Below, in pieces: positions 18,550 through 63,118 of a stretch of DNA of 64,000 bases. Position 1 is the stretch's first letter, and each line of letters opens with the position of its first letter. The notes beneath the pieces are model-generated. The model was not told the origin of the DNA. It was given only the letters and a program-made list of their open reading frames with translations, and did no database searches. The stretch is from Rhodocyclaceae bacterium (GTDB lineage: Bacteria > Pseudomonadota > Gammaproteobacteria > Burkholderiales > Rhodocyclaceae): assembly GCA_008080565.1 (NCBI GenBank), contig VIKE01000008.1:115709-179708 (forward strand), written 5' to 3'. A program made the position numbers and the translations under genes.

Positions 18550-18908
18550 AACGCCACCAGAATTTACTGCTCCTGATCGCCGTCGTGCTGCTTGCTGCCT
18601 TGCCGCTGTGGCTGGTGCAGAAGCCCGCAGCGGATGCTGACGGCAAGGCGGCCGAGATTTTTGCCGGAGCCGACAACAAGGCCAAAGACCTGATCGGCGT
18701 CATCGCGCCGGACTACCGGCCGTGGTTCGAACCCATCCTCGAACCGGCCAGCGGCGAGATTTCTTCGCTGCTCTTTGCCTTGCAGGCCGCGCTGGGGGCC
18801 GGCTTCATCGGCTATTACCTCGGCGCTTCGGTGACCCGCGAAAAAATGCGGCGCGAGATGGCCGAACAAATGGCCAAACCACAGGAAAAGCAAACCCTTG
18901 CTGATTGA
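18546..18908 (+). CDS. cbiN: Cobalt transport protein CbiN
   Basis: Position after cbiM; N- and C-terminal [40 protein letters not shown]. Confidence 0.92.
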
Positions 18909-20513: not shown

Positions 20514-20531
20514 CCGTAACACTTTCGTTTT

Positions 20532-21326
20532 ATGAGCGGAAAAATCTGGTTTGTCGGCGCCGGCCCGGGCGACCCCGACCTGATCACCGTCAAGGGCCGC
20601 AAGCTGCTGGAAGAATCGGGCGCCGTGCTCTTCGCCGGCTCGCTGGTCGATCAGGCGGCGACGCTATTCACGCCGGAAGGCTGCGACATCCGCGACTCCA
20701 AGGACATGACGCTGGAAGAGATGACCGACTGGCTGATCGCCGCCGCGGCCAAGCATAGAACCGTCGTCCGCCTGCAAACCGGTGACCCCGGCCTCTACGG
20801 CGCGTTGATCGAGATGACCCGGCCGCTGACTGCCGCCGACATTGAATGGGCCGTGGTGCCGGGCGTTTCCTCTGCCATGGCCTCGATGGCCGCGGCCGGC
20901 GAAACCTTGACCCTGCCCGAAGTCACCCAGACCGTGATCCTCACCCGCGTTGCCGGCCGCACGCCGATGCCGCCAGGTGAGGACCTCGAGTCGCTGGCCG
21001 CGCACAAAGCCACGCTCTGCATCTACCTGTCGATCACCTTGCTGCACAAGGTGCAGGAGGCGCTACTTGCCGCCGGCTGGTCGGAGGACTCACCGATTCT
21101 CGTCGTCCAGAAAGCCTGCTGGCCGGGCGCAGAGAAGATCGTGCGCGGCACGATCAAGGACATCAAACGCAAGTGTCAGGACGAGAAGATCGCCAGCCAG
21201 GCCATGATCATCGCCAGCCCGACGCTGGGCGCGGCAGACTGGCCGGACCTGATCCGCTCCAAGCTTTACGACCCGAGCTTCACCCACCGATTTCGCAAGG
21301 CGACCGAGAAACCCAATGACCAATGA
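20532..21326 (+). CDS. cobM: Precorrin-4/cobalt-precorrin-4 C11-methyltransferase
   Basis: VGAGPGDPDLITVKGRKLLEE, RLQTGDPGLYGALIEM, VVPGVSSAMASMAA. Confidence 0.94.
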   Translation: MSGKIWFVGAGPGDPDLITVKGRKLLEESGAVLFAGSLVDQAATLFTPEGCDIRDSKDMTLEEMTDWLIAAAAKHRTVVRLQTGDPGLYGALIEMTRPLTAADIEWAVVPGVSSAMASMAAAGETLTLPEVTQTVILTRVAGRTPMPPGEDLESLAAHKATLCIYLSITLLHKVQEALLAAGWSEDSPILVVQKACWPGAEKIVRGTIKDIKRKCQDEKIASQAMIIASPTLGAADWPDLIRSKLYDPSFTHRFRKATEKPNDQ

Positions 21327-22245
21327 CACCACCATCCTCCTCGTCGGCCACGGCTCACGCGGCCGCGAGGGCAACAAGGAAACGATCAATTTCGCCGCGC
21401 AGTGGCGCGAACTTCATCCCGAATGGCGGATTGAAGTCTGCTTTATCGAGCACGCCGATGTGCTGCTCGACGACGGGCTCGACCGCGCCACGCGCAATGC
21501 CACACGTGTCATCGCCATTCCCTTCATCCTGAATGCCGCCGGCCACGTCAAGATGGAATTGCCGCACGCGCTGGATGAGGCCCGTGAGCGCCACCCCGGC
21601 GTCGAGTTTGTCGTCACCCGCCACCTTGGCATGGGGCGCGAGATATTTGCTGTGCTGCAAGGCCAGCTTGACCGCCTGATGAAGCAGCTGGCGATGCCCG
21701 ATCCGATGACTACCGGCGTCGTGCTGCTTGGCCGCGGTTCGTCAGATGCCGGCGCCAATGGTGAGCTGGCCAAGATGGCGCGCTGGATTTTCGAGGACAA
21801 CGACCACGAACTGGTCGATCTGGCCTTTACCGGCGTCACCTGGCCGCGTCTGGAAACCGTCGTCCAGCGCCACGTCAAGCTGGGCATCATGCAGGTCGCC
21901 ATCATTCCGGTTTACCTGTTCACCGGCGTGCTCATCGAGCGCATCAAGGAACAGGTAGTACGCCTGCAACGCCAGTACCCGCAGGTCAGTTTCGCGCTCG
22001 GTACGCACTTTGGCTTCGACAAGGGCATTTTCGAACTGCTCGACGCCAAGATCGACGGCGAGCAACCTGAAGGCGGCATGCTCGAATGCGACGGCTGCAA
22101 GTACCGCGAAGCCGCCGAGGAAGAACATCTGCACGACCACAGCCACACGGCAACCGGTGCGGCAACGCCCGGCTGCGGCCATGCACTCGGCCACGACCAC
22201 GGGCATGCCCATGCCCACCCGAATTGCGATCACGCTCACGCCTGA
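21316..22245 (+). CDS. cbiX: Sirohydrochlorin cobaltochelatase CbiX (long form, His-rich tail)
   Basis: ILLVGHGSRGREGN, GRGSSDAGANGEL; CDGC and HLHDHSHT..HDHGHAHAHPNCDHAHA tail. Confidence 0.93.
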   Translation: MTNDTTILLVGHGSRGREGNKETINFAAQWRELHPEWRIEVCFIEHADVLLDDGLDRATRNATRVIAIPFILNAAGHVKMELPHALDEARERHPGVEFVVTRHLGMGREIFAVLQGQLDRLMKQLAMPDPMTTGVVLLGRGSSDAGANGELAKMARWIFEDNDHELVDLAFTGVTWPRLETVVQRHVKLGIMQVAIIPVYLFTGVLIERIKEQVVRLQRQYPQVSFALGTHFGFDKGIFELLDAKIDGEQPEGGMLECDGCKYREAAEEEHLHDHSHTATGAATPGCGHALGHDHGHAHAHPNCDHAHA

Positions 22246-22261
22246 GATCAGGGAGAAAACC

Positions 22262-22939
22262 ATGACCATCAATACCGCCACCGAACAACTGACCGCCGCC
22301 GGCCGTGCCATCGAACACGAATCCTTCGCCGTCATCGACGCCGAAGCCGGCCCGCACCATTACACCGCCGAGCAATGGCCGCTGGTCCGCCGGATGATCC
22401 ACGCCAACGCCGATTTCGAATTCAACGGTCTGACTGCCTTCCATCCGGAGGCGATGCGCGCCGGTTTTCAGGCGGTCTTGAAGGGCAACACGCCTATCGT
22501 CGCCGACGTCGAAATGATTTGCGTCGGCCTCTCCAAGCCGCGCCTCGCCCACTTCGGCCTGACTACCCATCACTACATTTCCGACGAGGATGTGATCGCC
22601 CAGGCCAAGCTAGAAAACAGCACCCGTGCCGTGCAGGCGATGCGCAAGGCGCACCGACTGGGCAAGCTCGACGGCGCCATCGTCGGCATCGGCAATGCGC
22701 CAACCGCGCTGATCGAACTGGTGCGCCTGATTCGCGAAGAAGGTGTGCGTCCGGCGCTGGTCGTTGCGATGCCGGTCGGTTTCGTATCGGCGGCCGAATC
22801 GAAGGATTTGATGATGACTGTCAACGACGTACCGTGGGTCGCCATCAAGGGACGCAAGGGCGGCTCGACGTTGGTCGTTGCCGCCATCCACGCCATGCTG
22901 TCGCTGGCCGAAGCCGAACAGAACAAGCAAGCGGCCTGA
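22262..22939 (+). CDS. cbiC: (Cobalt-)precorrin-8 methylmutase
   Basis: HYTAEQWPLVRRMIHANADFEF, VGIGNAPTAL, MPVGFVSAAESKDLM. Confidence 0.95.
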   Translation: MTINTATEQLTAAGRAIEHESFAVIDAEAGPHHYTAEQWPLVRRMIHANADFEFNGLTAFHPEAMRAGFQAVLKGNTPIVADVEMICVGLSKPRLAHFGLTTHHYISDEDVIAQAKLENSTRAVQAMRKAHRLGKLDGAIVGIGNAPTALIELVRLIREEGVRPALVVAMPVGFVSAAESKDLMMTVNDVPWVAIKGRKGGSTLVVAAIHAMLSLAEAEQNKQAA

Positions 22940-22946
22940 GCGAGCG

Positions 22947-24098
22947 ATGAACGAAGAAAGCAAACCGGCCAAAGTCCGCAAGGGCGATGGTCGGCGCGAA
23001 CGCGGTAACCGCACCGGCTTCACCACCGGCGCCTGCTCGGCGGCAGCAGCGCGGGCGGCAACGCTTGGCCTGCTCAACAGCGAAGTCGCTGAGACGGTCG
23101 TTTGCCGTCTGCCGAACGGCAGCGAGGTCAGTTTTGCCGTGACCGACGGCTACGTCGAAGAGGTCGCCGGGCTGTCCCACGCGGTTATCATCAAGGATGC
23201 CGGCGATGACCCGGATGCGACACATGGCGCGCACATGACGGCCGATGTCCGCATTCTCAAGCATCGCGCCGGCGAAGTGCTGCTCAAGGGCGGTTTTGGC
23301 GTCGGCGTGGTGACCAAGGACGGCCTCGGTCTGGAAGTCGGCGGCCCGGCAATCAACCCCGTTCCCCGGCGCAACATCATCGATAACGTGCGTGCGGTGG
23401 CCAGCGAACTACTTGACCACGACGGTCTGGAAGTCACCATTTCCGTGCCGCTCGGTGACGAAATGGCAAAGAAGACGCTGAACGCCCGACTTGGCATTCT
23501 CGGCGGCATTTCCATTCTCGGCACTACCGGCATCGTCCGACCCTACTCGACTGCCGCCTTCCGCGCTAGCGTCGTGCAGGCCGTCGATGTCGCCGCCAAG
23601 CAGGGCCAGACCAGCGTTATTTTCACCACCGGCGGGCGCACCGAAAAGTTCGCCATGCGCCAATTGCCGGAACTGGATGAATCCTGTTTCGTGCAGATGG
23701 GCGACTTCGTCAAGGCAGCCTTCAGCAGCGCCATTAAGCGTGAATTCCCCAAGGTTTACGTTGGCGCGATGGTCGGAAAGCTAACCAAAATGTGCCAAGG
23801 GCTATCCGTCACCCACGCCTGGAAAGCCGAAATCGACCGCGACATCCTCGCTGAATCGGCGCAGGAAGTCGGTGTGCCGGCTGATCTGGTCGAAGAAATC
23901 CGCGCCGCCGAGACCGCACGCTTTGCCGCTGAACGCCTCGCCGCCCTCGGTCTCGCCATCGATTTCCATCGGACGCTGGCCGCCAAGGCCATACGCAGCC
24001 TGAAAACCTGTTACCCCGGCAATTACCACCTGACCATCCTCGTTTGCGATTTCGAGGGTCGGTTCATTTGTCGACTGGATGAAGATGAAGCCCTCTGA
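22947..24098 (+). CDS. cbiD: Cobalt-precorrin-5B (C1)-methyltransferase CbiD
   Basis: GFTTGACSAAAARAA, GGPAINPVPRRNI, GILGGISILGTTGIVRPYS. Confidence 0.96.
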   Translation: MNEESKPAKVRKGDGRRERGNRTGFTTGACSAAAARAATLGLLNSEVAETVVCRLPNGSEVSFAVTDGYVEEVAGLSHAVIIKDAGDDPDATHGAHMTADVRILKHRAGEVLLKGGFGVGVVTKDGLGLEVGGPAINPVPRRNIIDNVRAVASELLDHDGLEVTISVPLGDEMAKKTLNARLGILGGISILGTTGIVRPYSTAAFRASVVQAVDVAAKQGQTSVIFTTGGRTEKFAMRQLPELDESCFVQMGDFVKAAFSSAIKREFPKVYVGAMVGKLTKMCQGLSVTHAWKAEIDRDILAESAQEVGVPADLVEEIRAAETARFAAERLAALGLAIDFHRTLAAKAIRSLKTCYPGNYHLTILVCDFEGRFICRLDEDEAL

Positions 24099-25371
24099 AC
24101 ATTGCACCCTGCTCGGCATACTCGACGACGGCTGGCCCGGTCTTTCCGATACTGCTCGCAAGCGCCTGGCTTCGGCTGATGTCGTGATTGGCGCCGGCCG
24201 CTCGCTGGAACTGGTACGCCCTTACCTCTCGACCACCGCCGTTTTGAAAGACATGGACGGCCTGCTCGGCCAGGTGCCCGGCTGGATCAGTGCCGCCCGT
24301 GAGGCAGGCCAGATAATCGTTGCGCTGGCTACCGGCGACCCGCTCTGCCACGGTATCGCCTCGTGGCTGACCACCAAACTGGGCCGTGGCGGTTTCGAGA
24401 TTCTGCCAGCAGTTTCCACCCTGCAACTGGCCTTCGCCCGTTTCAAAACGCCCTGGCAGGACATCATGATTTCGACCTGCCACAGCGCCGATGCCGGCGA
24501 GTGGTTTGTCGGCGCGACGCCGGCGCATGGCCTCTACAAGCTGATGCGGGCGATTGCCCTGCACCCGCGCGTGGCGCTGTTCACCGGCCCCGACAACAGC
24601 CCGGCGCGGCTGGCCCGGGCGCTGATTACCGCCGGCTATGGCGAGGAAGTGAAGCTGTCGATTGCCTGCCGCCTGCTGTTGCCCGATGAAGCGGTTTTCA
24701 CTGAACTTGCTGCGGTCGACGTCGCCAATCGGCAATTTCCTGAACCGAATGTCGTGCTCGTTGAACGCGCGCCGGATGCCGCCCGCCCGAGTTTTGGGCT
24801 GGAAGACCTCGACTACATCCAGCGTTCGCCGGAAAAAGGCCTGATCACCAAGCAGGAAGCGCGCGCCGTGTCGCTCGCCAAGATGCGCCTCAAGCCCGAT
24901 GCCATGGTCTGGGACATCGGCGCCGGCTCCGGCTCGGTCGGCCTCGAATGCGCCCGACTCGCGCCGCACGGCCATGTCTGGGCGATTGAAAAGAACGAAG
25001 GCGATGCCGCCAACGCGCGCGCCAACGCTGCACAGTTCCGCATCGGCAACTACACGCTGTTCGAAGGCAAAGCCCCGGCGCTACTCGACACCTGGCCGGA
25101 CCCGGACGCCGTATTCATCGGCGGTTCGGGCGGTGAACTCGCCGAGTTGATCAGCCTGATTCTCGGCCGCCTGAAACCGGGTGGCCGACTGGTGATGAAC
25201 TTCGTCACCATCGAAAACCTGGCTGTGGCGACTGCCGCCCTGAAAACCGCCGGTGCAGTCTGGGACGTCGTCCAACTGCAAGCCAGCCGCTCCCAACCGA
25301 TTCTCGACATGCACCGCCTGGCCGCCCAGAACCCGGTGTGGATTGTTACTGCCAGCAAGGGAAACGCATGA
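24079..25371 (+). CDS. cbiET: Precorrin-6Y C5,15-methyltransferase, CbiE-CbiT fusion (CobL)
   Basis: CbiE-like N half (LATGDPLCHGIASWL, EILPAVSTLQLAFAR); CbiT-like C half (GLITKQEARAVSLAKMRLKPDAMVWDIGAGSGSVGLE). Confidence 0.93.
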   Translation: MKMKPSEHCTLLGILDDGWPGLSDTARKRLASADVVIGAGRSLELVRPYLSTTAVLKDMDGLLGQVPGWISAAREAGQIIVALATGDPLCHGIASWLTTKLGRGGFEILPAVSTLQLAFARFKTPWQDIMISTCHSADAGEWFVGATPAHGLYKLMRAIALHPRVALFTGPDNSPARLARALITAGYGEEVKLSIACRLLLPDEAVFTELAAVDVANRQFPEPNVVLVERAPDAARPSFGLEDLDYIQRSPEKGLITKQEARAVSLAKMRLKPDAMVWDIGAGSGSVGLECARLAPHGHVWAIEKNEGDAANARANAAQFRIGNYTLFEGKAPALLDTWPDPDAVFIGGSGGELAELISLILGRLKPGGRLVMNFVTIENLAVATAALKTAGAVWDVVQLQASRSQPILDMHRLAAQNPVWIVTASKGNA

Positions 25372-26141
25372 GTACTTATGGAAAACTGATCGGCGCCTCG
25401 CTCGGCCCCGGTGACCCTGAACTGATTACCCGCCGCGCCTGGGCCGTGCTGCAATCCGGCGCGCGCTGGCTGTATCCGGTGAAGAAGGCCGAGGAATCGT
25501 CCTACGCGCTGTCCATCGTCGAACGCGGTGGTTTGCCGATTCCCGCCGATGCGGTTGAGCTCGTTTTCCCGATGACGCGCGATGCCGACATCCTCGCCAA
25601 GGCCTGGAGCCGCGCCGCCGTGCAAACCGTCGAACTACTGGCGCAAGGCCGCGATCTGGTCTTCCTCGTCGAAGGTGATGCCTCGACCTTCGCCACTTTC
25701 GGCCACCTTGCCCGCGTTGTTCGCGAGCTGGTTCCTGATGTGGAAGTCGAGACCATCCCCGGCGTCTCCTCCTTCGCTGCTGCCGCAGCGACTACCGGCG
25801 TCACGCTGGCCGAAGAAGACGAAACCTTCGCCATCATCCCCGCCGCTTATGGCGTCGAGATCATCGACCATCTGCTCGACGAATTCGACACACTGGCCCT
25901 GCTCAAGGTGAAGCCGCTGGTCGACGAAGTGGTTGAACTGCTCGAGCGGCGCGAACTGCTCACCACCTCGGTGTTCATCGAAAAAGTCGGTTCGCCGGAA
26001 GAACGCATCGTGCGCGATGTGGCCAGCCTGAAAGGCGAAAAGGTCAATTACCTGTCGCTGATGCTGGTGCAAAACCCCAAGCGCGTGCGTGGCGAATTGC
26101 GCCGCGGCTGCCGCAAACGCAAGGAAGCGGTTGATTCGTAG
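25368..26141 (+). CDS. cobI: Precorrin-2/cobalt-precorrin-2 C20-methyltransferase
   Basis: GASLGPGDPELITRRAWAVLQ, LVEGDASTFATFGHLAR, IPGVSSFAAAAAT. Confidence 0.93.
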   Translation: MSTYGKLIGASLGPGDPELITRRAWAVLQSGARWLYPVKKAEESSYALSIVERGGLPIPADAVELVFPMTRDADILAKAWSRAAVQTVELLAQGRDLVFLVEGDASTFATFGHLARVVRELVPDVEVETIPGVSSFAAAAATTGVTLAEEDETFAIIPAAYGVEIIDHLLDEFDTLALLKVKPLVDEVVELLERRELLTTSVFIEKVGSPEERIVRDVASLKGEKVNYLSLMLVQNPKRVRGELRRGCRKRKEAVDS

Positions 26142-26196
26142 ATTGTTACGGTCAACCGGAAAAAACACCCAAAATTAAAAAACGGACCCCAAGCCC

Positions 26197-27252
26197 ATGA
26201 AAATCGCAGTCGTTTCGATCACCAAACACGGCATCGCGCTGGCTAGCAAAGTCGTCGCCGCCCTGCCCGGCGCCCAGTTATTCACGCCGGAAAAATTCCG
26301 CAACGAAGCCGAAGCCGCCGCCCCAGGTGCCGCCCATTGCTACGAAGGCAAGGTCGGCGATCAGGTGCCGGCCCTGTTCGCCGCATTTGACGGCATTGTC
26401 GCCATCGTCTCGCTCGGCGCCGTCGTCCGCCTGATCGCGCCGCATCTCGGCAACAAGGAAACCGATCCGGCGGTCGTCGTCATCGATGAGGCCGGAAAAT
26501 TCGTCATCCCCATGCTTTCCGGCCACCTCGGCGGCGCCAATGGACTGGCCGGCCATCTCGCCACGGCACTCGGCGCGACGCCGGTGTTGACCACCGCTTC
26601 CGACGCCCGGCAAACGCTGGCCGTCGATCTGCTCGGCCGCGAACTGGGCTGGAAGTTCGAGGCGACCCACGACGAAATCGTTCGCTGCAGCGCCGCCGTG
26701 GTCAATGACGAAGCCGTCGCGCTGGTCCAGGAAGCTGGCAGCGATAACTGGTGGAGCGGCCACGCCAATGGCCGCAGTGGCCCGCTGGCCGCCAATATCC
26801 AGCGCTTTACACGGCTGGAAGAAGTGGACAGCGACAAGTTCGCCGCCGAACGCCGCATGAGAATCGCCCTTGGCCTCGGCTGTGACCGCGGCACGCCGGC
26901 GGCAAGCATTGCCCAATGCATCACTGAGGCGCTGACCGCTTGCGGCGCATCGCTCGCGGATGTTGAGGCAACGGCCAGCATCGACCTCAAGGCCAATGAA
27001 GTCGGGCTGCTCCAAGTCATTCACGAAAATGGCTGGGCCTGTACCTTCTACCCGGCGGCGGCGCTGGCTGCGGTCGACGTACCCAACCCGTCGGAAACCG
27101 TCCGCAAATTCACCGGCACGCCGTCGGTATCGGAAGCGGCGGCCCTGCTCGCGGCCAATGCCGACCCGTCCCACCTGATCATCGAAAAACACAAGTTGCG
27201 CGGCCCGGATGGGCGCAACGCCACTGTCTCCATTGCAAGGATGCCCCTATGA
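26197..27252 (+). CDS. cbiG: Cobalt-precorrin-5A hydrolase CbiG
   Basis: FDGIVAIVSLGAVVRLIAPHLGNKETDPAVVVIDEAGKFVIPMLSGHLGGANGLA; CobE-like C-terminus GLGCDRGTPAASI. Confidence 0.94.
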   Translation: MKIAVVSITKHGIALASKVVAALPGAQLFTPEKFRNEAEAAAPGAAHCYEGKVGDQVPALFAAFDGIVAIVSLGAVVRLIAPHLGNKETDPAVVVIDEAGKFVIPMLSGHLGGANGLAGHLATALGATPVLTTASDARQTLAVDLLGRELGWKFEATHDEIVRCSAAVVNDEAVALVQEAGSDNWWSGHANGRSGPLAANIQRFTRLEEVDSDKFAAERRMRIALGLGCDRGTPAASIAQCITEALTACGASLADVEATASIDLKANEVGLLQVIHENGWACTFYPAAALAAVDVPNPSETVRKFTGTPSVSEAAALLAANADPSHLIIEKHKLRGPDGRNATVSIARMPL

Positions 27253-28235
27253 ACGCCCCAGAAGCCATCAAGAAAACCGGAAAAATCATGCTTGTCGGCC
27301 TTGGCCCGGGCAGCAACGACCACCTGACCGCCCGCGCCCGCGCCGCGATTGCCGAAGCCGACACGATCATCGGCTACGTCACCTACATCCGCCTGGTCGC
27401 CGATCTGGTGGTTGGCAAGGAAGTCATCAAGAAGTCGATGACCGAAGAGTTGGACCGCGCCATTGAATCGCTCGATCGTGCCCGCCAGGGCAAGAAAGTA
27501 GCGCTGATTTCGTCCGGCGATGCCGGGGTTTATGGCATGGCCGGGCCGACCTTCGAGGTGCTGTTCCAAGCTGGCTGGACGCCGGATTCGGATATCGAGG
27601 TCGAGATCATCCCCGGTGCCTCCGCCATCAACACCTGCGCCGCACTGGTCGGCGCGCCGCTGACCCACGACTTCTGTGCCATTTCGCTGTCCGACCTGCT
27701 GACCCCGTGGCCGACCATCGCCCGTCGGCTTGACGCCGTGGCCTATGCCGATTTCGTCGTCGCGCTCTACAACCCGAAGAGCGGCCGCCGGACGCAGCAG
27801 ATCGTCGAAGCGCAGCGCCTGTTCCTGCGCCACCGCGACCCGCAAACGCCTGTCGCCATCGTCAAGTCCGGCTATCGCCCGAAGCAGCGCATTGAATTCA
27901 CGACGCTGGAGAAAATGAACGAATGCGACATAGGCATGCTGTCCACGGTGCTGATCGGCAATTCCAACACCTTCGTCAAGCATGGCCTGATGGTGACGCC
28001 GCGCGGCTACGCCAACAAGTACGCCGTTGAAGATGGCGAGCGCAACACGCACGATGGCGAACAGGCCGGCCGTTCGCTGTCCACCGGCCTCAATGGCTGG
28101 ATGGCGAGCATTCAGGCCAGCGGCAAAAGCGCCGCCGAACTGGCAGTTTTGCATCGCCTGCCAGAAGACTACATCGCCGCAGTTCTTCTCGCCGAAGTGC
28201 CAGAGGAAGGCGAAGCCAACGAAATCGAAGCCTGA
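27249..28235 (+). CDS. cbiH: Precorrin-3B C17-methyltransferase CbiH/CobJ
   Basis: LVGLGPGSNDHLTARARAAIAEADTIIGYVTY, ISSGDAGVYGMAGP, IIPGASAINTCAALVGAPLTHDFCAISLSDLLTPW; ~60 aa C-terminal extension. Confidence 0.94.
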   Translation: MNAPEAIKKTGKIMLVGLGPGSNDHLTARARAAIAEADTIIGYVTYIRLVADLVVGKEVIKKSMTEELDRAIESLDRARQGKKVALISSGDAGVYGMAGPTFEVLFQAGWTPDSDIEVEIIPGASAINTCAALVGAPLTHDFCAISLSDLLTPWPTIARRLDAVAYADFVVALYNPKSGRRTQQIVEAQRLFLRHRDPQTPVAIVKSGYRPKQRIEFTTLEKMNECDIGMLSTVLIGNSNTFVKHGLMVTPRGYANKYAVEDGERNTHDGEQAGRSLSTGLNGWMASIQASGKSAAELAVLHRLPEDYIAAVLLAEVPEEGEANEIEA

Positions 28236-28480: not shown

Positions 28481-28612
28481 TTTCGTGCCAGCCACCCATT
28501 GGCTGGCAACTGCAATTGACTGTCTGCGGGGTTGCGGATGTCTGCGAAAAACCATGCCTGGGGGCGTGGGCCGCAGCATTCCTGGCGGACGGTCAAATTC
28601 TGGAGTTTGACC

Positions 28613-30706
28613 ATGAAACATCAGCTGTTTGTCCCATCACTAATTGCCCTTGCCCTGAGCGGCCTGAGCACCAGTTACGCCGCCGGCGTTCCCACCCTGC
28701 ACGAAGTCACCGTCAGCGGCGGCGCCCATGACCTGACCGGTGTTGCTGATTCGGCTACCGAAGGCACGGTCACCGGAAAACAATTGGCTAACCGCCCCCT
28801 GCTTCGCCCCGCCGAGGTTCTTGAAACCGTTCCCGGGATGATCGTTACTCAGCACTCGGGCGATGGCAAAGCCAACCAGTATTTCCTGCGCGGCTTCAAT
28901 CTCGATCACGGCAGCGACTTTTCCACGCAACTGATGGGTATGCCGGTCAATATGGTCAGCCACGCACATGGTCAGGGCTATATGGACCTCAATTTCCTGA
29001 TTCCTGAACTGGTCGACATTTTGAAATACCGCAAGGGCGCCTATGCCGCCGAAGATGGCGATTTTGCGACCACCGGCAGCGCCCGCATCGACTATCTGCG
29101 CCAGCTTGAGAAGAGTTTTGTCGACCTCAGCCTCGGCCAGAATATTTACCGTCGGCTGCTGGCGGCGGGCGGTCACAGCTATGGCGAGATCAACGTATTG
29201 GGCGCCATCGAGGTTGTTGGCAACGATGGCCCGTGGGATCAGCCGGAAAACCTCAAGAAGCACAACGGCGTGCTGCGCCTGACTTCAGGCTCTGCCGCCA
29301 ATGGTTTTTCCATCACCGGCATGGCCTATCAGGCCGACTGGACGGCGACCGAACACGTGCCGGAACGCGCCATTATCAACGGCGAGATCGGCCGTTACGG
29401 TGCCCTCTCTGCCAACGACGGTGGCAAGACGCACCGTTATAGTCTGTCCGGTGATTGGGTGAAGACCGATGCGCAAGGGGCCAGCAAGTTCAGCCTTTAT
29501 GTCATCGATTACGGCCTCAATCTGTTCTCGGCGCCTTCCGGCTACATCAGCGCTCCCCAGGGCGGTCAGCATGAACAGGCTGATGAGCGCACGGTTTGGG
29601 GTGGCCAGGCCAGCCGTAGCTGGTTGCTCGGGCCGAACTGGCAAGACACTGAACTGACCGCCGGGCTGCAATTGCGCCACGACCGGATCAGCAGCGTTGG
29701 CCTCTACAACACGGAAAACCGGCGGCAGACCAACACGGTACGCGAAGACCGCATCAACGAAACCGCCATCGCTGCCTTCTTCGATGCCCGCACGCAATGG
29801 ACGGATTGGCTACGCACCAACCTCGGCCTGCGCCGCGACCAGATTACGGCCAAAGCCACCACCCTCGGCGGCCAGTACAACATAGACAATGGCGGCACGG
29901 TTGATGCCGGGCAGACCAGCCCCAAGCTCGGTGTTGTCTTCGGCCCCTTCAATCTGCTCGGCCAGACCGAGTTTTATGCCAACTGGGGCCACGGTTTCCA
30001 CAGTAACGATGTGCGCGGCGCCACGGCACGCAGCAACCCGCAGGATGGTAGCGCCGCCGAGGCCGTACCGCTGATCGTCAAGGCTAAGGGCAGCGAACTC
30101 GGCATGCGCACCACGCCGCTGAAGGGCTGGAATAGTAGCCTTTCACTCTGGCAGATGGAACTGGCCTCAGAACTGGTTTTCATCGGCGACGAAGGGATTA
30201 GCGGACCGAAAGGTGCCTCGCAGCGCCACGGTGTCGAATGGTCCAACTACATCACCCCGGCTGATGGCTGGATCATCGACGCCGATCTGGCCTGGTCGCA
30301 GGCGCGTTTCAAGGAGGCCAACCCGGATAATGGCGGTCGCCATGTGCCAAACGCCATTCCGCTCACCGGCTCGATGGCCGTTACCGCTGATCGTGGTGGC
30401 ACGTGGTTCGGTGGCCTGCGCCTGCGTTACCTCGGCGCCTATGCGCTGGAAGAAACTGGCGAACAGAAATCGACTGCCTTCTGGATGATCAACCTGAAAG
30501 CCGGCTACCGCTTCAGCCCCAAATTGCAAGTGTCGCTTGATGTGCTCAATCTCTTCGACAAAAAGGCCAACGACATTGAATACTGGGGCGGTGCCTGTAC
30601 CCGTAACGAAACACTGGGCGGCGCGTGTGGTGGTGGTATCGACGGCAAGTTGGTGCACCCGTTGGAGCCACGCACTATACGCGTCGGTTTACGGATTGGC
30701 TTCTGA
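28613..30706 (+). CDS. TonB-dependent outer membrane receptor (riboswitch-linked)
   Basis: Signal peptide, plug domain RPAEVLETVPGMIVTQHSGDGKANQYFLRGFNLDHGSDF, C-terminal beta strand ending RVGLRIGF. Confidence 0.92.
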   Translation: MKHQLFVPSLIALALSGLSTSYAAGVPTLHEVTVSGGAHDLTGVADSATEGTVTGKQLANRPLLRPAEVLETVPGMIVTQHSGDGKANQYFLRGFNLDHGSDFSTQLMGMPVNMVSHAHGQGYMDLNFLIPELVDILKYRKGAYAAEDGDFATTGSARIDYLRQLEKSFVDLSLGQNIYRRLLAAGGHSYGEINVLGAIEVVGNDGPWDQPENLKKHNGVLRLTSGSAANGFSITGMAYQADWTATEHVPERAIINGEIGRYGALSANDGGKTHRYSLSGDWVKTDAQGASKFSLYVIDYGLNLFSAPSGYISAPQGGQHEQADERTVWGGQASRSWLLGPNWQDTELTAGLQLRHDRISSVGLYNTENRRQTNTVREDRINETAIAAFFDARTQWTDWLRTNLGLRRDQITAKATTLGGQYNIDNGGTVDAGQTSPKLGVVFGPFNLLGQTEFYANWGHGFHSNDVRGATARSNPQDGSAAEAVPLIVKAKGSELGMRTTPLKGWNSSLSLWQMELASELVFIGDEGISGPKGASQRHGVEWSNYITPADGWIIDADLAWSQARFKEANPDNGGRHVPNAIPLTGSMAVTADRGGTWFGGLRLRYLGAYALEETGEQKSTAFWMINLKAGYRFSPKLQVSLDVLNLFDKKANDIEYWGGACTRNETLGGACGGGIDGKLVHPLEPRTIRVGLRIGF

Positions 30707-30847: not shown

Positions 30848-31215
30848 CTCTTCATGGCCGGACTGACACAGATACTTTCTTGGCGATCCGTATGAAATTC
30901 GTCTTTTGCGGCACACAATCGAAAATGAATCACGAAAATCAAATATCCGATTTTATTCACTGGGTCGCTCCAGCATGACGCGATAGTTAACCTGGCGCAT
31001 GCGCCATTCCTCAAGCGACAGCATCAATCAGCCCTTGAGTATGGCAAGACCATTACCCTTCAAGCTTTTCCGCAAATGCTATTGCCATTACCTGCCCATT
31101 CTAAATAGACTGCCCCTTGCTCTGACCAGGCTGGCGTGCCGGATCGCTCACGAAGGTTTCCGTCTCCAATGTCTGACGCTCGCATCCCAACAGGGGCCAA
31201 CTGGAGAACAGGATC

Positions 31216-31515
31216 ATGGGTCATGTGACGCTCACCGATGTCGAATGGATCAACCTGAATGTGCTTGCCGTCATTCGCGCCGGTCTACAACATGATCGGG
31301 CTTCAACCTGTTGCAAATTCGCACTCGACACAAAACTTGCCGACTACCTCAATGGCTTGAGCCTTGATGAGTTGTGGTCCCTTGTGCTCCATGTCGGCGA
31401 CACGACCCTGTTCCCGCCGCGTGCAGATCTGGTGACGCTGCTAAATACGCCGCGAGCCCTGGCAGGCCCCATGGCCATCATTCATCCGTCCGCACCAATG
31501 GAAATTCGGCGCTAG
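31216..31515 (+). CDS. FlhD-like transcriptional activator subunit
   Basis: VEWINLNVLAVIRAGLQHDRASTCCKFALDTKLADYLNGLSLDELWSL follows the FlhD plan; lies directly before an FlhC-like gene. Confidence 0.6.
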   Translation: MGHVTLTDVEWINLNVLAVIRAGLQHDRASTCCKFALDTKLADYLNGLSLDELWSLVLHVGDTTLFPPRADLVTLLNTPRALAGPMAIIHPSAPMEIRR

Positions 31516-31525
31516 GAAGACTCTC

Positions 31526-32166
31526 ATGTTGACCCGAGGCGACCGGCATTTGCACGCGATGCAACAGGCGAAGCAATTGGCTGCACTCGGCGCCCGCTTG
31601 AAAACGATTCACATCATGACCGGCATGCCACCGCGCCAGGTGCAGAGCCTTTTCTTCCCCGATGCACACACAATTCCCCGTGGTCGAGCCCCGGACTCGG
31701 CCGAGTGGTACCACGGCGCCAACCTCATATTGCGCACCGATGCCTGCCTCTCATTGGCGCCAAGTACCACCAGTTGCGCAGCCATGGCCTCACCGCCGCG
31801 GAAGCCTTGATCCTGGCTTATCGAGCCTATCAGTCGGTCACCCAAGCACCTTACCGGATCAGCCTGGACCGGGCTTTCAACCTTATCTCCTACGTCGACG
31901 GCATCTGGCTGGCCAGCGCACCAACGCTGACCGTCCTGACTTGTCCGGGCTGCGGTTGCGAGTTCATCGCAGCAGTCGGCACCACCCTCCACCCAGGCGA
32001 CGCCTGCCCCTTCTGTAAACTGCTTGAGCGATTTCACGTCGACCACCGCATCCAGGCATCTTATCCGGCCCGCCCACCCATCGATATGACCGCGCGCCAA
32101 CTGGGCATGCTCGCCCTCTTCCACAAGCTAAGCCCTGGTGCCGACGGCGATAACCCCACTGAATAA
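31526..32166 (+). pseudogene. FlhC-like transcriptional activator, frameshifted near 31747-31755
   Basis: N part: QLAALGARLKTIHIMTGMPPRQVQSLFFPDAHTIPRGRAPDSAEWYHGANLILRTDACLS. C part in another frame: LIGAKYHQLRSHGLTAAEALILAYRAYQS...SLDRAFNLISYVDG...CPGCGCEFI...CPFCK (zinc cysteines). Confidence 0.72.
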
Positions 32167-32192: not shown

Positions 32193-33920
32193 TTGTTGAC
32201 CGAAGAATGGGGCACTTTACCTCCCGTGCAACAGCGCTATGCAGCCATGGCCGTAACACCAATCCCTGTCAGTTCCTACCCTGCCTCCGACCCGGGCTTT
32301 GCCGCCCTGTCAATCGATGAACTGCTGACCAGCGAAGCAGACCTGATCACGCGCATCAAGCTATGCTACGGCGCTGACCGAGAGAGTTTCGAGCGTGACG
32401 TGCTGACGCTGGTCCGGCGTTACGCCGCCTGCGTGCATCTGCTGCCGGCAACCCCCGACAATTACTTCAGCAAACCCGGCGGTCTGCTGCGACTCGGCCT
32501 CGAGACTGCCTTCTTCAGTCTGCAGGGCACCGATGCACACATCTTTTCGGGACGTATGAGCATCTCGGCACGTCGGCAGTTGGAGCCGCGCTGGCGCCAT
32601 GCAACATTCATCGCAGGGTTGTGCTGCGAACTGCATCGTTTGCTGAGTCATGTCATCGTCACCGATACCGTCGGAGAAGCGTGGCCAGCCTTCCTGCTAC
32701 CCTTGTCTGACTGGCTGGCGGACAGAGGCGCGGAGCGATATTTTCTGCGCTGGCGACCACAGGCCGTCGAGGCGCGGGGGCTGGGGCTGTTTGCACTGCC
32801 CCATGTAGTGTCCCCGGCGGTTATGGCCGATCTCTCCGAAGGCAACACGGTGATCGTGCCCCACTTGCTGGCCAGCATCAGCGGCATTCCGAGTTATCGC
32901 GAGCACAATATCCTCGACGAACTGGTCCGCCGCTCGCTGGCTCTGGTCATCGACCGCAACCTCGCTGCCAGTGCCGACCGCTACGGCTCACCGCAATACG
33001 GTTCGCATCTAGAACGCTATCTGGTCGATGCCTTGCGGCGACTGGCCAGCGGCAATTCGGCCTGGGTGCCCAATCGCGAGAAGTCTCGCCTGTGGTTCGG
33101 GCAAGACGGGCTATTCCTGATCTGGCCCGGCGCTGCAGAGGATATCCAGAAGCTGCTTGAGGCTGACCAATTGGCCGGCATTCCCAAGGCACCGGAAACA
33201 ATACTGGAACTACTGCTGGCCGCTGGCGTGTTCGAGGCGGCGAACGGTCGATCGACCTGGCAAATCAGGCCACCAGGTACCAAGACCCCTTTGGAAGCCG
33301 TCAAACTCTCGGCCCCTGGCATCCTTCTCACGGGTGTCGATCCCGCCCCCGTGGCCTTACCCGATACGCTGGAATGCAAGTTGCAACCTGCCCCTGACGC
33401 AAGCGCGCCGCGGACAACAGCCTCCGAACCTCCACCCTCCCTCATCAGTAGCAGTTCCCAGTTATCGCTGATACCCCAACCCGAGCCGCCCGCCGTAAAC
33501 GAAGCGCACATGGCATCAGGCGAGGAAATATCTCTCACTCAGACATTGGAGCCCATTTCGGCACCACTCCCCACAAGTTTCGCCTTACATGCCCCCTTGC
33601 GCCTGAACCCTGTCGTGCGTGACGCCCTGAGCAATGCCATTCGCACACTCAACGACGGCCAAGGTCCGGCCATGGTGTGTACCGTCGCCCAGGGCGTGTT
33701 CGTGCCTCTGGATGAGTTCGTCCGGCGCGGCGTCCAACCCTCTCTCGCCATGCGTACGCTCGCCGAAACGAACATGCTGGTGAAGCAGGGCCGCAACGGT
33801 CCGCCGACCCTGTCGCGCGAATTCAACGGCATCGTCACCATCGGCATCGTGCTCGACCCGCGTTACGTAAGTGGCCTTGATCTGACCGCTTTTGCTGCGC
33901 CAGCAGCGGAGCAAAGCTGA
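32193..33920 (+). CDS. traI: MobH-family relaxase (TraI_2 domain)
   Basis: GLLRLGLETAFFSLQGTDAHIFSGRMSISARRQLEPRWRHATFIAGLCCELHRLLSHVIVTDTVGEAWPAFLLPLSDWL; adjacent to traD. Alternative ATG at 32247. Confidence 0.88.
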   Translation: MLTEEWGTLPPVQQRYAAMAVTPIPVSSYPASDPGFAALSIDELLTSEADLITRIKLCYGADRESFERDVLTLVRRYAACVHLLPATPDNYFSKPGGLLRLGLETAFFSLQGTDAHIFSGRMSISARRQLEPRWRHATFIAGLCCELHRLLSHVIVTDTVGEAWPAFLLPLSDWLADRGAERYFLRWRPQAVEARGLGLFALPHVVSPAVMADLSEGNTVIVPHLLASISGIPSYREHNILDELVRRSLALVIDRNLAASADRYGSPQYGSHLERYLVDALRRLASGNSAWVPNREKSRLWFGQDGLFLIWPGAAEDIQKLLEADQLAGIPKAPETILELLLAAGVFEAANGRSTWQIRPPGTKTPLEAVKLSAPGILLTGVDPAPVALPDTLECKLQPAPDASAPRTTASEPPPSLISSSSQLSLIPQPEPPAVNEAHMASGEEISLTQTLEPISAPLPTSFALHAPLRLNPVVRDALSNAIRTLNDGQGPAMVCTVAQGVFVPLDEFVRRGVQPSLAMRTLAETNMLVKQGRNGPPTLSREFNGIVTIGIVLDPRYVSGLDLTAFAAPAAEQS

Positions 33921-35828
33921 ATGCTGGTGCGCCGCTACGAAATGCCCTGGCGCCGTGCTTATGAACTCTATGCCGGTATCGCCTGGTGGCTGGCGCTGCT
34001 CTATTTCGTGGGGGTAGGTGTAGTCGGCGCTCTTCCCCGCCAACTAGCACTGCCTCTGGCACTCGTCTGCTTTGCTATGGGCGTACGGCGGATCACCCAG
34101 GCCTTGCACATACTGATCTTGCGCGCGTCGCTGGGCGGACGCAGCATCGAAGTCATTGGCACGAATGCATTGGCCAAATGGTGCAAGGATCCGGCCTCCG
34201 TATTCATCGGATTCGGCTTCGAATGGCAGCCCGTCCATGCGCAGCGGCTCTATGAACTCGCCAAGATCGACTACCGGGAATACGCCGTGTCGCCACGCTT
34301 GCTAGAACTTTTGGGCTACGGCAGCAAACCACAGCCGGACGCCGAGATCGGTTTGCCCTACATCCACGGCGTTGAGCCAAAGGAAGGCCCCTTGCACCGG
34401 CCTCTACAGAACTTCGAGGGTGGCACGCTGCTGGTCGGCACCACCCAGTCCGGCAAGGGGGTCGCGCTGGCCAATCTGATCACCCAGGCGATCCGGCGCG
34501 GCGATGTGGTGATTGTCATCGACCCGAAGAACAGCCGCCGGTTGAAGCGTGTCGTCGAGCGTGCCTGCACTGATTACCGGGAGCCCGATACCTTCCTTGA
34601 GTTCCACCCGGCCTTCCCGGAACGGGGCGTGCGACTCGATTTTACTTTCAACTGGCAGAAACCCACCGAGATCGCTTCGCGCATCCAGTCCATCATGCCG
34701 CCGGACACGGCCGGGGCCTTCTCGGCTTTCGGCTGGGATGCGGTCAACGTCGTGGTACAGGGGCTGGTCGAAATTGAAGAGCGACCTAACCTGATGAAAC
34801 TGACCAAGTACATTGAGGGCGGCATCGATCCCGTGCTGGAGAGTTCGCTACGCCGCTACTTCGACCAAACCCTCGGGACCGATTGGCGTGAATTGCCCAA
34901 CATGAAGAAACTGTTGCATGAGGCCCAGCGCGGCAACCTCAAGCGACCGTCCGAGGCGGCTAGCGCCGATCTGATGGCCTTCGTCGCCTACTACGAGCAC
35001 CACGTCGCCCAGAACCTACGCAACAAGGTGATCGATGCTCAGGTACGGACCTTTCGCCACAACCGTGAGCATTACCAAAAGATCACCGCCAACCTGCTCC
35101 CTATCCTGTCGATGCTGACCTCCGGCGATCTGGGGCGCAGTTTATCTCCCGACCCCTTCGATGCAGACGATGCGAGGCCGATCATGAACTTCGAGAAAAT
35201 CGAGCGTGCCGGCCATGTGTTGTACATGTGCCTCGATTCGCTTCCCGATCCGTCCGTGGCTTCAGCCATCGGCGCCTTGGCGCTGGCCGACCAAGCGGCG
35301 CGTGCCGGCATGCGCTACAACCTGGGCATTTACCGGCGCATCGCGCTATTCGTCGATGAAGTGGCCAATGTGATCAATCAGCCGCTGATTGAAATCCTCA
35401 ACAAAGGTGCTGAGGGCGGCATCTTCACCACCTGCGCGATGCAGACCCTGGCCGACCTGGCCAAGCGGTTGGGTAGCGAGGATGCAGCACGCATGGCGCT
35501 GGGCAACCTCAACAACCTGATCGCACTACGCACCAAGGACCGGCCGACCCAGGACTTCGTCGTCGAAACCTTCGGCAAGACCGCGATTCATACGGTACGG
35601 GTAGGTCTGAGTCATGGTTCCGATGCCCACCTGGGCGACTTCTCGTCGACTTACTCGACTCAACTCTCTGAAAGCCTGGAGGAGATGGTGCCGGCCGATA
35701 TCTTGGGCAAGTTACCCAATCTCCAGTATTTCGCATCAGTGTCCGGCGGCCGGATCATCAAGGGGCGGTTTCCAATCATCGATCCCGATGCGGAGACGCC
35801 ACAAACGCCCACGAAGGTGGCCGCGTGA
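33921..35828 (+). CDS. traD: Conjugative coupling protein TraD (SXT/TOL subfamily)
   Basis: Walker A LLVGTTQSGKGVALANL, Walker B RIALFVDEVANVI, N-terminal TM helices. Confidence 0.93.
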   Translation: MLVRRYEMPWRRAYELYAGIAWWLALLYFVGVGVVGALPRQLALPLALVCFAMGVRRITQALHILILRASLGGRSIEVIGTNALAKWCKDPASVFIGFGFEWQPVHAQRLYELAKIDYREYAVSPRLLELLGYGSKPQPDAEIGLPYIHGVEPKEGPLHRPLQNFEGGTLLVGTTQSGKGVALANLITQAIRRGDVVIVIDPKNSRRLKRVVERACTDYREPDTFLEFHPAFPERGVRLDFTFNWQKPTEIASRIQSIMPPDTAGAFSAFGWDAVNVVVQGLVEIEERPNLMKLTKYIEGGIDPVLESSLRRYFDQTLGTDWRELPNMKKLLHEAQRGNLKRPSEAASADLMAFVAYYEHHVAQNLRNKVIDAQVRTFRHNREHYQKITANLLPILSMLTSGDLGRSLSPDPFDADDARPIMNFEKIERAGHVLYMCLDSLPDPSVASAIGALALADQAARAGMRYNLGIYRRIALFVDEVANVINQPLIEILNKGAEGGIFTTCAMQTLADLAKRLGSEDAARMALGNLNNLIALRTKDRPTQDFVVETFGKTAIHTVRVGLSHGSDAHLGDFSSTYSTQLSESLEEMVPADILGKLPNLQYFASVSGGRIIKGRFPIIDPDAETPQTPTKVAA

Positions 35829-36448
35829 TCCGCGCAGTTGCCATACTATCGCTGCTCATCCTGTTGATTCTGGTGTTGTACGTACCCTCGGCGCATCCGC
35901 CAGAACGATTCCTTGCCCAGTTGCGCGACGAACATCAGATAGCAACTGGGTATTGGGGCCTCCAGCCCGCCACGCATATGCTGGATCGAGCAGTAAGGAT
36001 GCAGGAAGCGACCGCCAATGTCACCCCAATTCCTGCCGCAAAGGATGCGCCTTCGAGATCTGCGGCAAATGGCGCAGTGTTGCTTGAAATGACCTCGGTC
36101 AACCAACGGCTCTTCAACAACCCCTACTTCCGCTCCGTCGATGCTGTGCTCCTGCTTGCCAGCTATCGACTGTCCACCGTGATCGAGTGGTTGCCATGGC
36201 TGCTCGTATTCATACTGGGCGCCCTTGCTGACGGTGGGTTCGCACGACTGATCAAGGCCAAGGAGTTCCTGCAGCACGATCCGGAAATGTACGCGCTATA
36301 TGCAAGCCTGGGGATCATCGTCATCTGCGCGAGCGTCATCGGTTTCGTCCTGCCGGTGACACTACATCCCCTGCTGCTGCCGAGCACGCCATTGATGATT
36401 GGTGTGCTGGCTGGCCGGGCACTGGGGTGTTTTCATAAGCGCGGATGA
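35825..36448 (+). CDS. ICE membrane protein, TIGR03747/DUF4400-like
   Basis: Polytopic, overlaps traD by 4 nt, MTSVNQRLFNNPYFRSVDAVLLLASYRLSTVIEWLPWLLVFILGALADGGFARLI. Confidence 0.78.
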   Translation: MIRAVAILSLLILLILVLYVPSAHPPERFLAQLRDEHQIATGYWGLQPATHMLDRAVRMQEATANVTPIPAAKDAPSRSAANGAVLLEMTSVNQRLFNNPYFRSVDAVLLLASYRLSTVIEWLPWLLVFILGALADGGFARLIKAKEFLQHDPEMYALYASLGIIVICASVIGFVLPVTLHPLLLPSTPLMIGVLAGRALGCFHKRG

Positions 36449-36580: not shown

Positions 36581-40098
<3,518 letters not shown>

Positions 40099-41634: not shown

Positions 41635-41642
41635 GGGGGGGC

Positions 41643-42959
41643 CTACGGGTTTGTGACGGCTGTGGCAGAGGGCGAACTGGTCGATGCCTCGCCGAGAATG
41701 CGTTCGATCTCGGCTGCGGACCGGTGCGCCTCGGCCAGCGCGCGCAGATACTGGGATTTGGCCTGAAATGAAGTACGCTGGGCATCCAGCACGTCGAGGA
41801 AGCTGAATTTGCCCAGTTCGAAGCCCTTGGTCGCGGCATCGTAGGCACTTTGCGCCCCGGGCAGGATCTCCCGCCGTAGCGACTCCGTCTCCCCACGTGC
41901 GGAATTCAGTCGCTCATAGGCCAGTGTCAGTTCGTTGGACAGGCGGATTTCGGTGGCCGACAGGTCGTCCCGCGCCTTGTCGGTACGGTGCAGTGCTTCG
42001 AGCAGGTTGCCCTGATTGCGGTCGAACACGGGGATAGGCATCGACAAGCCGAGAATCGCCTGATTTCTGCCTAGTTGTTCATCGCGTTTGGCGCCCAGGC
42101 TGACGGTCACGTTCGGAATGCGCCGGCTGCGTTCGATCTCGGCGAGGGCTTGCCGGCGGTCAACCTCGATTTATGCCCGTAACAGCGTGGGCGACGTGGC
42201 CAGGCGGACGTTCAAATCGGCCAGCGTGGGCAGCGGCGGCAAGGCATCCAGATCACCTTCGGCGCGCTCGAAACGGGGGGTCGGATTGCCCCAGGTGCCG
42301 GCGAGTCGCTTACGCGTTGTCGCCAGTTCACTGACTGCCAGCGTCAATTCAATCCGCACACCGGCTTCAGCCACGCGTGCCTTGGTTTCTTCGACCGGTG
42401 ACACCTTGCCTGCCAGAACCCGCCGCGCGGCGGCGCTGCTGGCGCGTTGCGCCAGTTCGACCGAGCCCTGCGCCAGGCGCAAACGCTCTTGAGCGACGAG
42501 CACATCGAAGAAGGCCGCCACCACGGCGGCGCGAATTTCGGCGCGCTTGGCGTCCAGTTCCGCCGATGCCGCATCGCGGCCGCGCTCGGCGGCATCGATC
42601 CTGGCTGCGCGCTTGCCTCCTAACTCGATCGGCTGGTTCACCTGCAAGGTCGTGGTCCGCGTCGCCTTCTGCGTATCCTCAATGAGCGTTGCAAGCTCCG
42701 GATTCGGGCGGACTTGCGCCTGAATGATCGTGGCTTCGGTCGCCTCCACTTCGCGCCTTGCGCCCCTCAGTTCCGGGCTGGCGCCAAACGCCATGGCCAG
42801 CGCCCTATTCAGGCTGAGCGGGGATGCCGGTTCAACGGCATGCGACGCCCTGACATTACCGATTTCGTCAGTGCCGTTGCGTCCGACATCGACCGTTTGG
42901 GCAAAAGAGGGGTTACATAACAGTGCCGCCAAACCAAGCGGCAATAAACGTCTTCGCAT
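41643..42959 (-). pseudogene. czcC: CzcC-type outer membrane efflux protein with in-frame TAA (42171-42173)
   Basis: ...LATSPTLLRA*IEVDRRQALAEIERSRRIPNVTVSLGAKRDEQLGRNQ... continuous in one frame except for one stop codon. Confidence 0.85.
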
Positions 42960-53550: not shown

Positions 53551-54740
53551 TCAATCTGGCTGGTCGCGACATCGGCCATCATCTCGGGCGCTTTGTCTTT
53601 ACCGGCATTGGCCTCGGGCTGCTGATCGGAGTCACGCTAACCATGGCCGGCGTTTATCGCGGCATGGTCTCCGACGGCCAGGCGGTAATTGCCGCTTCGG
53701 GGGCCGATCTCTGGGTGGTGCAGAAAGATACGCTGGGCCCCTGGGCCGAACCCTCTTCGCTACGTGATGATGTGTATCGCACGCTCGCCGTCCTGCCGGG
53801 CGTCGTCGAAGCCGCCAACGTGGCTTACCTGACCATGCAGGTGCCGGTCAAAGGCAAGGATGTGCGGGTCATGCTGGCCGGCATAGAGCCGGGCGCACTG
53901 GGTGAACCGGCGCAAATCGTCAGCGGGCGGCCCTTGTTGAACAGCCATTACGAAGCGGTGGCCGATCAGGCAACCGGGCTGAGTGTCGGCGACAGCGTCA
54001 GCATTCGTCGCCATGACTACACCGTGGTTGGCCTGACGCGCCGCGCCACGTCATCCTCCGGCGACCCGATGCTGTTCATTCCGCTGAAAGATGCGCAGGA
54101 AGTCCAGTTTCTCAAGGACAACGACAGTCTGATCGCCGAGCGCGCACGTACTGCAGCCAACCCGTTGCTCAACCGCCCCGGTGTACCGGGCCTGCTCGAT
54201 GCCGTGCTGGCCAGTCAGACCACCAGCCACAACGTCAATGCGGTGCTGATCCGCCTTTCGCCCGGCTATCCCGCTGACGAAGTCAAGGCTGAGATCGGCC
54301 GCTGGAAGCATCTGACTGCCTGGACGCGCGCCGATATGGAAGACATTCTGATCGCCAAACTGATCGCCACCTCGGCCAAACAGATCGGTATGTTCCTGGT
54401 GATTCTCGCTATCGTCAGCGCCGCCATCGTCGCTTTCATCATCTACACCATGACCCTCAACAAGCAGCGCGAAATCGCCGTCCTCAAACTGATCGGCGCC
54501 CGCGATAGCAGCATCGCGCTGATGATCCTGCAACAGGCAATCGCCCTCGGGCTGATCGGCTACGCGGTGGGTCAGGTGTCAGCCACGTTGTGGGCTCCGT
54601 TTTTCCCGAAGACCGTGCTGCTCGAATCGGGCGATGCCCTGCGCGGGCTGGTCGTCACGCTGGTGGTTTGCGCCTTGGCCAGCGTGCTGGCGATCCGCGC
54701 TGCCTTGCGCGTCGATCCGGCCGATGCGATTGGAGGCTGA
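53547..54740 (+). CDS. FtsX/MacB-type ABC transporter permease
   Basis: N-terminal TM plus large periplasmic domain; C-terminal [32 protein letters not shown]. Confidence 0.9.
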
Positions 54741-54741
54741 G

Positions 54742-55315
54742 ATGAGCACAAACAACGAATCGGTCGCCATCCGTCTCTCCGGCCTGACCAAAACCTATGG
54801 CAGTGGCGAGAATGCGGTGCACGCCCTGCGTGGTGTCGATATGACCATCCAACGCGGCGAAGTCGTCGGCCTGGTCGGCCCCAGCGGTTCCGGCAAGAGC
54901 ACCTTTCGACGTTACCGACAACGTGGCGCTATTGCCTATGCTGGCCGGGCGGCCGAACGACGAAGCGCGCCAGCGCGCCCGCGAATTGATCGAAGCGCTC
55001 GATGTCAGTCACCGCGCCGGGGTGCGGGTAAACATGCTCTCCGGTGGCGAACAGCAGCGCGTCGCCATCGCCCGCTCACTGGTCAATCAGCCACCGGTCA
55101 TTTTGGCTGATGAGCCAACCGCGCCGCTCGACTCAACCCGCGCCCTCGCCGTCATGCGCATCCTCAACCAGATGGCACAACGCTATGGCGCAGCGATCAT
55201 CGTCGTCACCCATGACGAAAAAATCATCCCGACCTTCAAGCGCATTTATCACATCCGCGACGGGCGCACCGAAGAAGAGGCCGGTGAGGGTCGTGAAATT
55301 CCGGAAGAAGCCTGA
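54742..55315 (+). pseudogene. MacB/LolD-type ABC transporter ATPase with internal deletion/frameshift near 54903
   Basis: [13 protein letters not shown] (frame 1) runs directly into [32 protein letters not shown]...[29 protein letters not shown] (different frame); the Q-loop region is absent. Confidence 0.85.
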
Positions 55316-62347: not shown

Positions 62348-62624
62348 ATGCAAGCAGACACCTATATCCCGCGGCGTCTCGATGACCAATGGAAGATCGG
62401 CTTCTGGGATGTCGATGTTTTTCGTCGGCTATATGTCCGGCAGCAAGACCTCGTTCGCCGTCTGCATGGCGGCGGGCATCTTCGTTTCACGCTGGATCTC
62501 CCGCCTCAAGGCCGACAAGCACCCGGCCTTCGCCATCCACTGGCTGTACTGGCACCTGCCGGCCAGTCCGCTAACTACGATGCGCGCCACACCACCGTCT
62601 CATATCCGCCGCATGGTCGGCTGA
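62348..62624 (+). pseudogene. traL: TraL-like T4SS protein, frameshifted near 62416-62424
   Basis: MQADTYIPRRLDDQWKIGFWDVDV in frame 1, then FFVGYMSGSKTSFAVCMAAGIFVSRWISRLKADKHPAFAIHWLYWHLPASPLTTMRATPPSHIRRMVG in frame 2. Confidence 0.72.
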
Positions 62625-62641
62625 GCCAAGGAGAACAACCC

Positions 62642-63118
62642 ATGGACTTCGAACGACTCAACGGCGACATCAAGGAAATGCGCCGCCGCAACCGCGGGCT
62701 CGGTCTCGCCGTCGGCGTCCTGTTCTGGGTCACCCGCGACAAGGCGAGCAGCGAATACCTCGAGCAGATGGGCAGTTTCATCGCCTGGCTGGTCCTCGAC
62801 GTGACACCGGCCTCGATCGACTGGAAGAAGGAAATTCTGCTCGGCTACGTCGAACCGGAACAGTACGGCCCGCTGAAGACCCGCCAGGAAGTCGAAGCCG
62901 AACGCCTGAAGCGGATAAACGCCGCCACTGTCTTCGCACCCCAGCAACTGGTCCCCAGTGAAGAGGGACAAAGCGTCGTCATTCGTGGCCGCCTGCGCAC
63001 CCTGGTCAATGGCTTCGAGACGGCCAACGACCTCAAGGCCTATCGGGTCGAGTTCAGCTATGCCGGCGCACGCATGCATCTGAAAAGTTTCAAGGAGGTA
63101 GCCAATGTCGGCAACTGA
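62642..63118 (+). CDS. traE: TraE-like T4SS protein, apparently internally shortened
   Basis: DFERLNGDIKEMRRRNRGLGLAVGVLFW then VTRDKASSEYLEQMGSFIAWLVLDVTPASIDWKKEILLGYVEPEQYGPLKTRQEVEAERLKRINAATVFAP. Confidence 0.75.
   Translation: MDFERLNGDIKEMRRRNRGLGLAVGVLFWVTRDKASSEYLEQMGSFIAWLVLDVTPASIDWKKEILLGYVEPEQYGPLKTRQEVEAERLKRINAATVFAPQQLVPSEEGQSVVIRGRLRTLVNGFETANDLKAYRVEFSYAGARMHLKSFKEVANVGN

Follow-up and report, generated by a model that had tools for sequence, protein, structure and literature searches.

Does the flhDC-like gene pair of this conjugative element still encode a working transfer activator, or has the break in its flhC gene put the activator out of action? The window, by which we mean the whole stretch of 64,000 nucleotides from a Rhodocyclaceae bacterium that was analyzed here, carries an FlhD-like open reading frame and, behind it, an FlhC-like gene that is split into two halves in different frames, just as an earlier note on this DNA had described (Table 1). 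In terms of the Pfam FlhC model, positions 12-65 fall into the 5' half and positions 83-165 into the 3' half. The CPGCGC...CPFC cysteine cluster, which the same note had reported as retained, is found in the 3' half and its cysteines are invariant in the homologues. Over 75 residues, the 5' half shares 77-92% identity with relatives; the 3' half is 61-82% identical to close relatives. As detailed below, we think it likely that this locus represents a recent loss of function of flhC, the activator being of a known kind and the element that carries it being in decay.

Table 1 Features of the flhDC-like locus, its surroundings in the window and the tandem-FlhC proteins of relatives (coordinates are those of the window unless a locus is named).
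Feature	Coordinates	Strand	Evidence or remark
Conserved upstream box 1, CCTTGNGTRTGGCAAG, possible operator arm	31033..31048	+	
Conserved upstream box 2, AAATGCTATTGCCAT, possible inverted operator arm	31074..31088	+	putative function
flhD-like gene, intact, FlhD-type subunit, 99 aa	31216..31515	+	66-86% identity to ~22 close relatives
flhC-like 5' half	31526..31810	+	75 homologous residues, then 19 out of frame
flhC-like 3' half with four-cysteine zinc cluster	31705..32166	+	FlhC profile; homology from ~31753
Lesion site, two extra bases	31744..31756	+	DNA comparison with 22 close relatives
mobH relaxase gene	32193..33920	+	NCBIfam MobH 334 bits, cut-off 200
traD coupling protein gene, SXT-type	33921..35828	+	NCBIfam SXT_TraD 700 bits; 92% identity to close relatives
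DUF4400-type gene after traD	35825..36448	+	30% to Piscinibacter plasmid DUF4400 protein; 74-78% to close relatives
czcA-type efflux gene (cargo), broken mid-gene	36581..39743	-	halves are profile positions 1-510 and 519-1045, two frames
czcC-type gene (cargo) with in-frame stop	41640..42959	-	
ABC ATPase gene (cargo)	54727..55315	+	large internal deletion and frame change after Walker A
traL, broken	62348..62631	+	residues 1-24 and 25-99 in different frames, short deletion between
traE	62642..63118	+	internal in-frame deletion of ~31 codons
traK, complete up to contig end	63105..63989	+	62% to Piscinibacter TraK
Tandem-FlhC proteins	L019:7227-8444, L100:3577-4773, L105:3656-4783, L106:3659-4783		
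Tandem-FlhC proteins, continued	L108:507-1634, L110:154-1266, L111:3668-4792, L113:3643-4776		

Because both flhC halves, scored singly, fall below the Pfam FlhC cut-off, homologues were used instead for the family assignment. These were collected by searching for the neighboring MobH relaxase in 85,462 genomes, which gave 80 loci, mostly from Rhodocyclaceae and Burkholderiales; a search of viral contigs for relatives found none. The intact FlhC homologue of locus L049 scores 39.8 bits against Pfam FlhC (PF05280, cut-off 27), 32 of the 35 FlhC family members match PF05280 at E ≤ 0.01, and a profile built from the 35 homologues finds the E. coli FlhC of PDB 2AVU (E = 2.9e-12) and the Cupriavidus FlhC of PDB 8J56 (E = 2.1e-11). 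The AlphaFold model of the L049 protein (pLDDT 84.6) matches 8J56 (E = 2e-7) and 2AVU (E = 2e-6), with a TM-score of 0.79 to the FlhC of 8J56 when normalized by the target, and the zinc cysteines C139, C142, C160, and C163 are invariant across the 35 homologues. The Pfam score of the intact homologues, the four cysteines and the three-dimensional fold all place the family with FlhC, and the relatedness of the full-length protein to FlhC, on which the earlier note had relied, is borne out. The FlhD-like protein is more diverged. It scores 15.6 bits against Pfam FlhD (PF05247), below the cut-off of 27, and the best member of its family also stays sub-threshold (E = 0.0007); its profile finds the FlhD of PDB 5HXG with E = 0.0023, and FlhD chains make up all ten top PDB fold matches of its model, with probabilities of 0.90-1.00 and weak E-values of 0.04-0.46. 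We conclude that the FlhC-like protein is a member of the FlhDC fold family and that its FlhD-like partner probably is one as well.

The pair lies directly upstream of mobH-traD, a layout common to many betaproteobacterial elements, and the annotation of a Janthinobacterium lividum plasmid gives the order flhD-flhC-mobH-traD-DUF4400, which was also seen on a Piscinibacter plasmid. Since the FlhD partner is well conserved and the synteny with mobH-traD recurs in dozens of genomes, the split flhC is far more than a chance arrangement. The backbone genes of the window also recur in close relatives. In the left part, a cobalamin cluster and a TonB receptor gene come after the toprim and DUF932 backbone genes, and in the right part metal-efflux and other cargo genes precede traL, traE, and traK, the window ending exactly at the end of contig C69, inside the tra region. 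A phage-type integrase is encoded on C69, ~65 kb to the left of the window, and relatives are located on a chromosome (L058) as well as on plasmids (L018 and L019); the element is plausibly an ICE but may also be a plasmid. Contig C12, which starts inside traN, may be the continuation of C69. A TraC family search found no TraC on C69 or C12, and the only contigs with one, C99 and C131, hold other transfer systems. The cobalamin biosynthesis and cobalt-uptake cluster (17872-28235) and the TonB receptor gene (28532-30706), which lie between the backbone genes and flhD, were not seen at the corresponding place in the compared relatives and look like cargo. A TsoY-family gene in the window (47451-48755) matches the model named 'selenoprotein TsoY' with 308.7 bits.

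Which of the known activators does the pair resemble? The earlier note had named SetCD, AcaCD, and BisDC together. An FlhDC-like pair inside a conjugation gene module, here next to the relaxase and coupling-protein genes and likewise in the relatives, is what AcaCD and SetCD would lead one to expect, and this part of the assignment stands. AcaCD of IncA/C also consists of an FlhC-like and an FlhD-like subunit, encoded D then C on MOBH/MPF_F elements, and AcaC of pRA1 aligns with the FlhC family profile over 144 columns (hhalign E = 6e-8). However, sequence identity between AcaCD and the window pair is low, AcaD has no detectable sequence similarity to the FlhD-like subunit, and IncA/C places its genes in the order acr1-vcrx147-acaDC-acr2 and not directly in front of mobH-traD. 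SetCD of the SXT/R391 ICEs, and that of Rts1, is an FlhDC-related activator pair of conjugative elements as well, and the TraD beside the window pair is of the SXT subfamily; SetCD is under SetR, whereas no SetR-like gene was seen adjacent to the window pair. Flagellar FlhDC shares the fold and the zinc-cysteine cluster with the window family but only ~22-27% identity, and the window pair sits in a conjugation module. BisDC of ICEclc is also an FlhC-like activator of an ICE, but BisC belongs to the DUF2857 proteins and BisD carries a ParB domain, with no FlhD domain detected in it (PMC7423338). A Pfam search of the window pair and its homologues returned FlhC and FlhD only, with no DUF2857 or ParB domain, and these FlhC (PF05280) and FlhD-like domains rule out the BisDC type. 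By analogy, the pair would work most like AcaCD or SetCD.

The frame switch in flhC was placed at ~31744 by a coding-frame model written for this analysis. The alignment with homologues that the earlier note had proposed defines the indel as a CT duplication in CTCTC at ~31749-31753, a 2-nt excess that is private to the window copy in the comparison with 22 close relatives, and the 58 relatives in which the two halves could be located all encode FlhC in one open frame. The dN/dS of both flhC halves against the relatives is 0.05-0.17, the same as among intact copies, which argues that selection maintained the reading frame until a short time ago and that the lesion is recent. A second, intact copy of the window flhC was sought in the genome and none was found.

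Both frames are open on either side of the switch and overlap by ~100 nt, an arrangement that fits programmed ribosomal frameshifting, in which the ribosome would join the two frames into a full-length FlhC as a control step. We consider this way out, which the earlier note had left for the gene, extremely improbable: with 58 of 58 relatives in a single frame, none shares the frame arrangement, neither a strict X_XXY_YYZ slippery heptamer nor a homopolymer was found at the switch, and the product of a -1 slip would exceed the proteins of the relatives by one residue. The same single open frame in every relative speaks against a second reading, in which each half is translated on its own and the two polypeptides come together as a functional split FlhC. 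An in-frame GTG (31705) is available in the 3' half and both halves are conserved, but this GTG sits within the upstream reading frame and the recency of the lesion explains the conservation equally well, making a split FlhC highly improbable. It is also very unlikely that the fragments, either still translated and working as a split subunit or linked through low-level frameshifting, would let the element fire on rare occasions. In the assembled sequence, the frame is genuinely disrupted.

Could the two extra bases be an artefact of sequencing or assembly, with flhC intact in the organism? The assembly is a draft of 152 contigs with a contamination estimate of 6%, and both flhC halves still appear under purifying selection. 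Frameshift candidates are also raised assembly-wide, at 3.93 per 100 kb in the 1.09 Mb sampled from this genome; the figure for 0.8 Mb from a complete same-genus genome is 0.50 per 100 kb, so that the density here is ~8 times as high. The lesion itself, however, is a dinucleotide duplication and no homopolymer slip, and the core coding sequence that was aligned (~60 kb from 56 genes, a small sample) contained no clear uncompensated indel of 1-2 nt, the two clear cases being deletions of 8 and 46 nt; the many small gaps in the DNA alignments of core genes were compensated alignment noise, and only these two indels were kept. A first count had suggested excess stops in core orthologues, but on inspection these were mostly mis-set starts and an antisense ORF, and the count was dropped. 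Moreover, the in-frame stop in the czcC-type gene, the break in czcA and the deletions in the ABC ATPase gene, traL, and traE (Table 1) are damage that base-calling does not usually make. Together with the dinucleotide duplication and the core-gene deletions, they speak against erroneous base calls as what broke these genes in general, and we regard an artefactual flhC lesion as unlikely.

We favor decay, and since damage in the window does not clearly exceed that elsewhere in the genome, this decay appears to be genome-wide. The raised density of frameshift candidates, listed above on the side of an artefact, also counts toward a real mutation. Because the flhC break is one of many inactivating mutations in the element and the genome, it is better read as decay than as regulation; it is real as an observation and ordinary as a mechanism. 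The genome as a whole looks rich in recent pseudogenes. Near the end of the contig, the traL frame break and the traE deletion have put the traL start into one open reading frame with traE (62348-63118).

These results suggest the following picture. The locus would encode a heteromeric transcription activator of the FlhDC family that belongs to a betaproteobacterial MOBH/MPF_F conjugative element and, in the intact relatives, probably turns on transfer-gene promoters in the manner of AcaCD and SetCD. In the window copy, flhC appears to have suffered a recent two-base insertion. Judged from the sequence, the broken gene leaves a 94-residue fragment that lacks the C-terminal zinc-binding part, and no functional FlhDC complex would be expected from it; self-encoded activation of transfer is, by analogy with IncA/C, expected to be lost. 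In IncA/C, deletion of acaC abolishes transfer, and pAM04528 and pSN254, which were reported to be non-self-transferable, carry a frameshifted acaC (PMC4207636). To this extent we agree with the earlier view that the frameshift locks the switch off, as loss of the C subunit is expected to disable the activator, but its rank as the key event was overstated: the element also has damaged traL and traE genes, and no TraC was found for it on C69 or C12, so that the loss of flhC may matter little. The wider meaning of the locus is that an FlhDC-family activator is tied to widespread betaproteobacterial MOBH/MPF_F elements, in which the pair stands directly upstream of the relaxase and coupling-protein genes, and that, after acaC of IncA/C, there is now a second setting where a frameshift has cost an activator of this type its C subunit, the element in this case being in decay.

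Upstream of flhD, two conserved boxes (Table 1) form a TGGCAA/TTGCCA inverted core in most close relatives. The GTRTGGCAA core of box 1 is present in 20 of 21 compared loci and lies 126-183 bases before flhD in 19 of those. The boxes are a possible operator. We also considered the inverted repeat as an FlhDC box used across the element, but no further copies above chance were found within the window, and SetCD boxes are known to be strongly unlike FlhDC boxes (PMC4344509); we keep it as a lead only.

The same genome contains a second, diverged FlhD-FlhC pair (C126:19811-23257, locus L001) beside a gene for an S24-peptidase/HTH repressor, and this pair with its repressor gene resembles the SetR-SetCD arrangement. 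The L001 FlhDC might act in trans for the broken copy, with cross-activation unlikely at ~20-26% identity. In eight of the relatives, a single protein of ~370-400 aa contains two complete FlhC domains, one after the other (Table 1). In the four of these that were inspected, each domain has its own CxxC...CxxC, and the annotation of the L019 plasmid begins the gene at its second half. As FlhDC contains two FlhC chains, the tandem protein may be a fused FlhC dimer, and these two-domain proteins may serve structural biologists better than the broken flhC copy.
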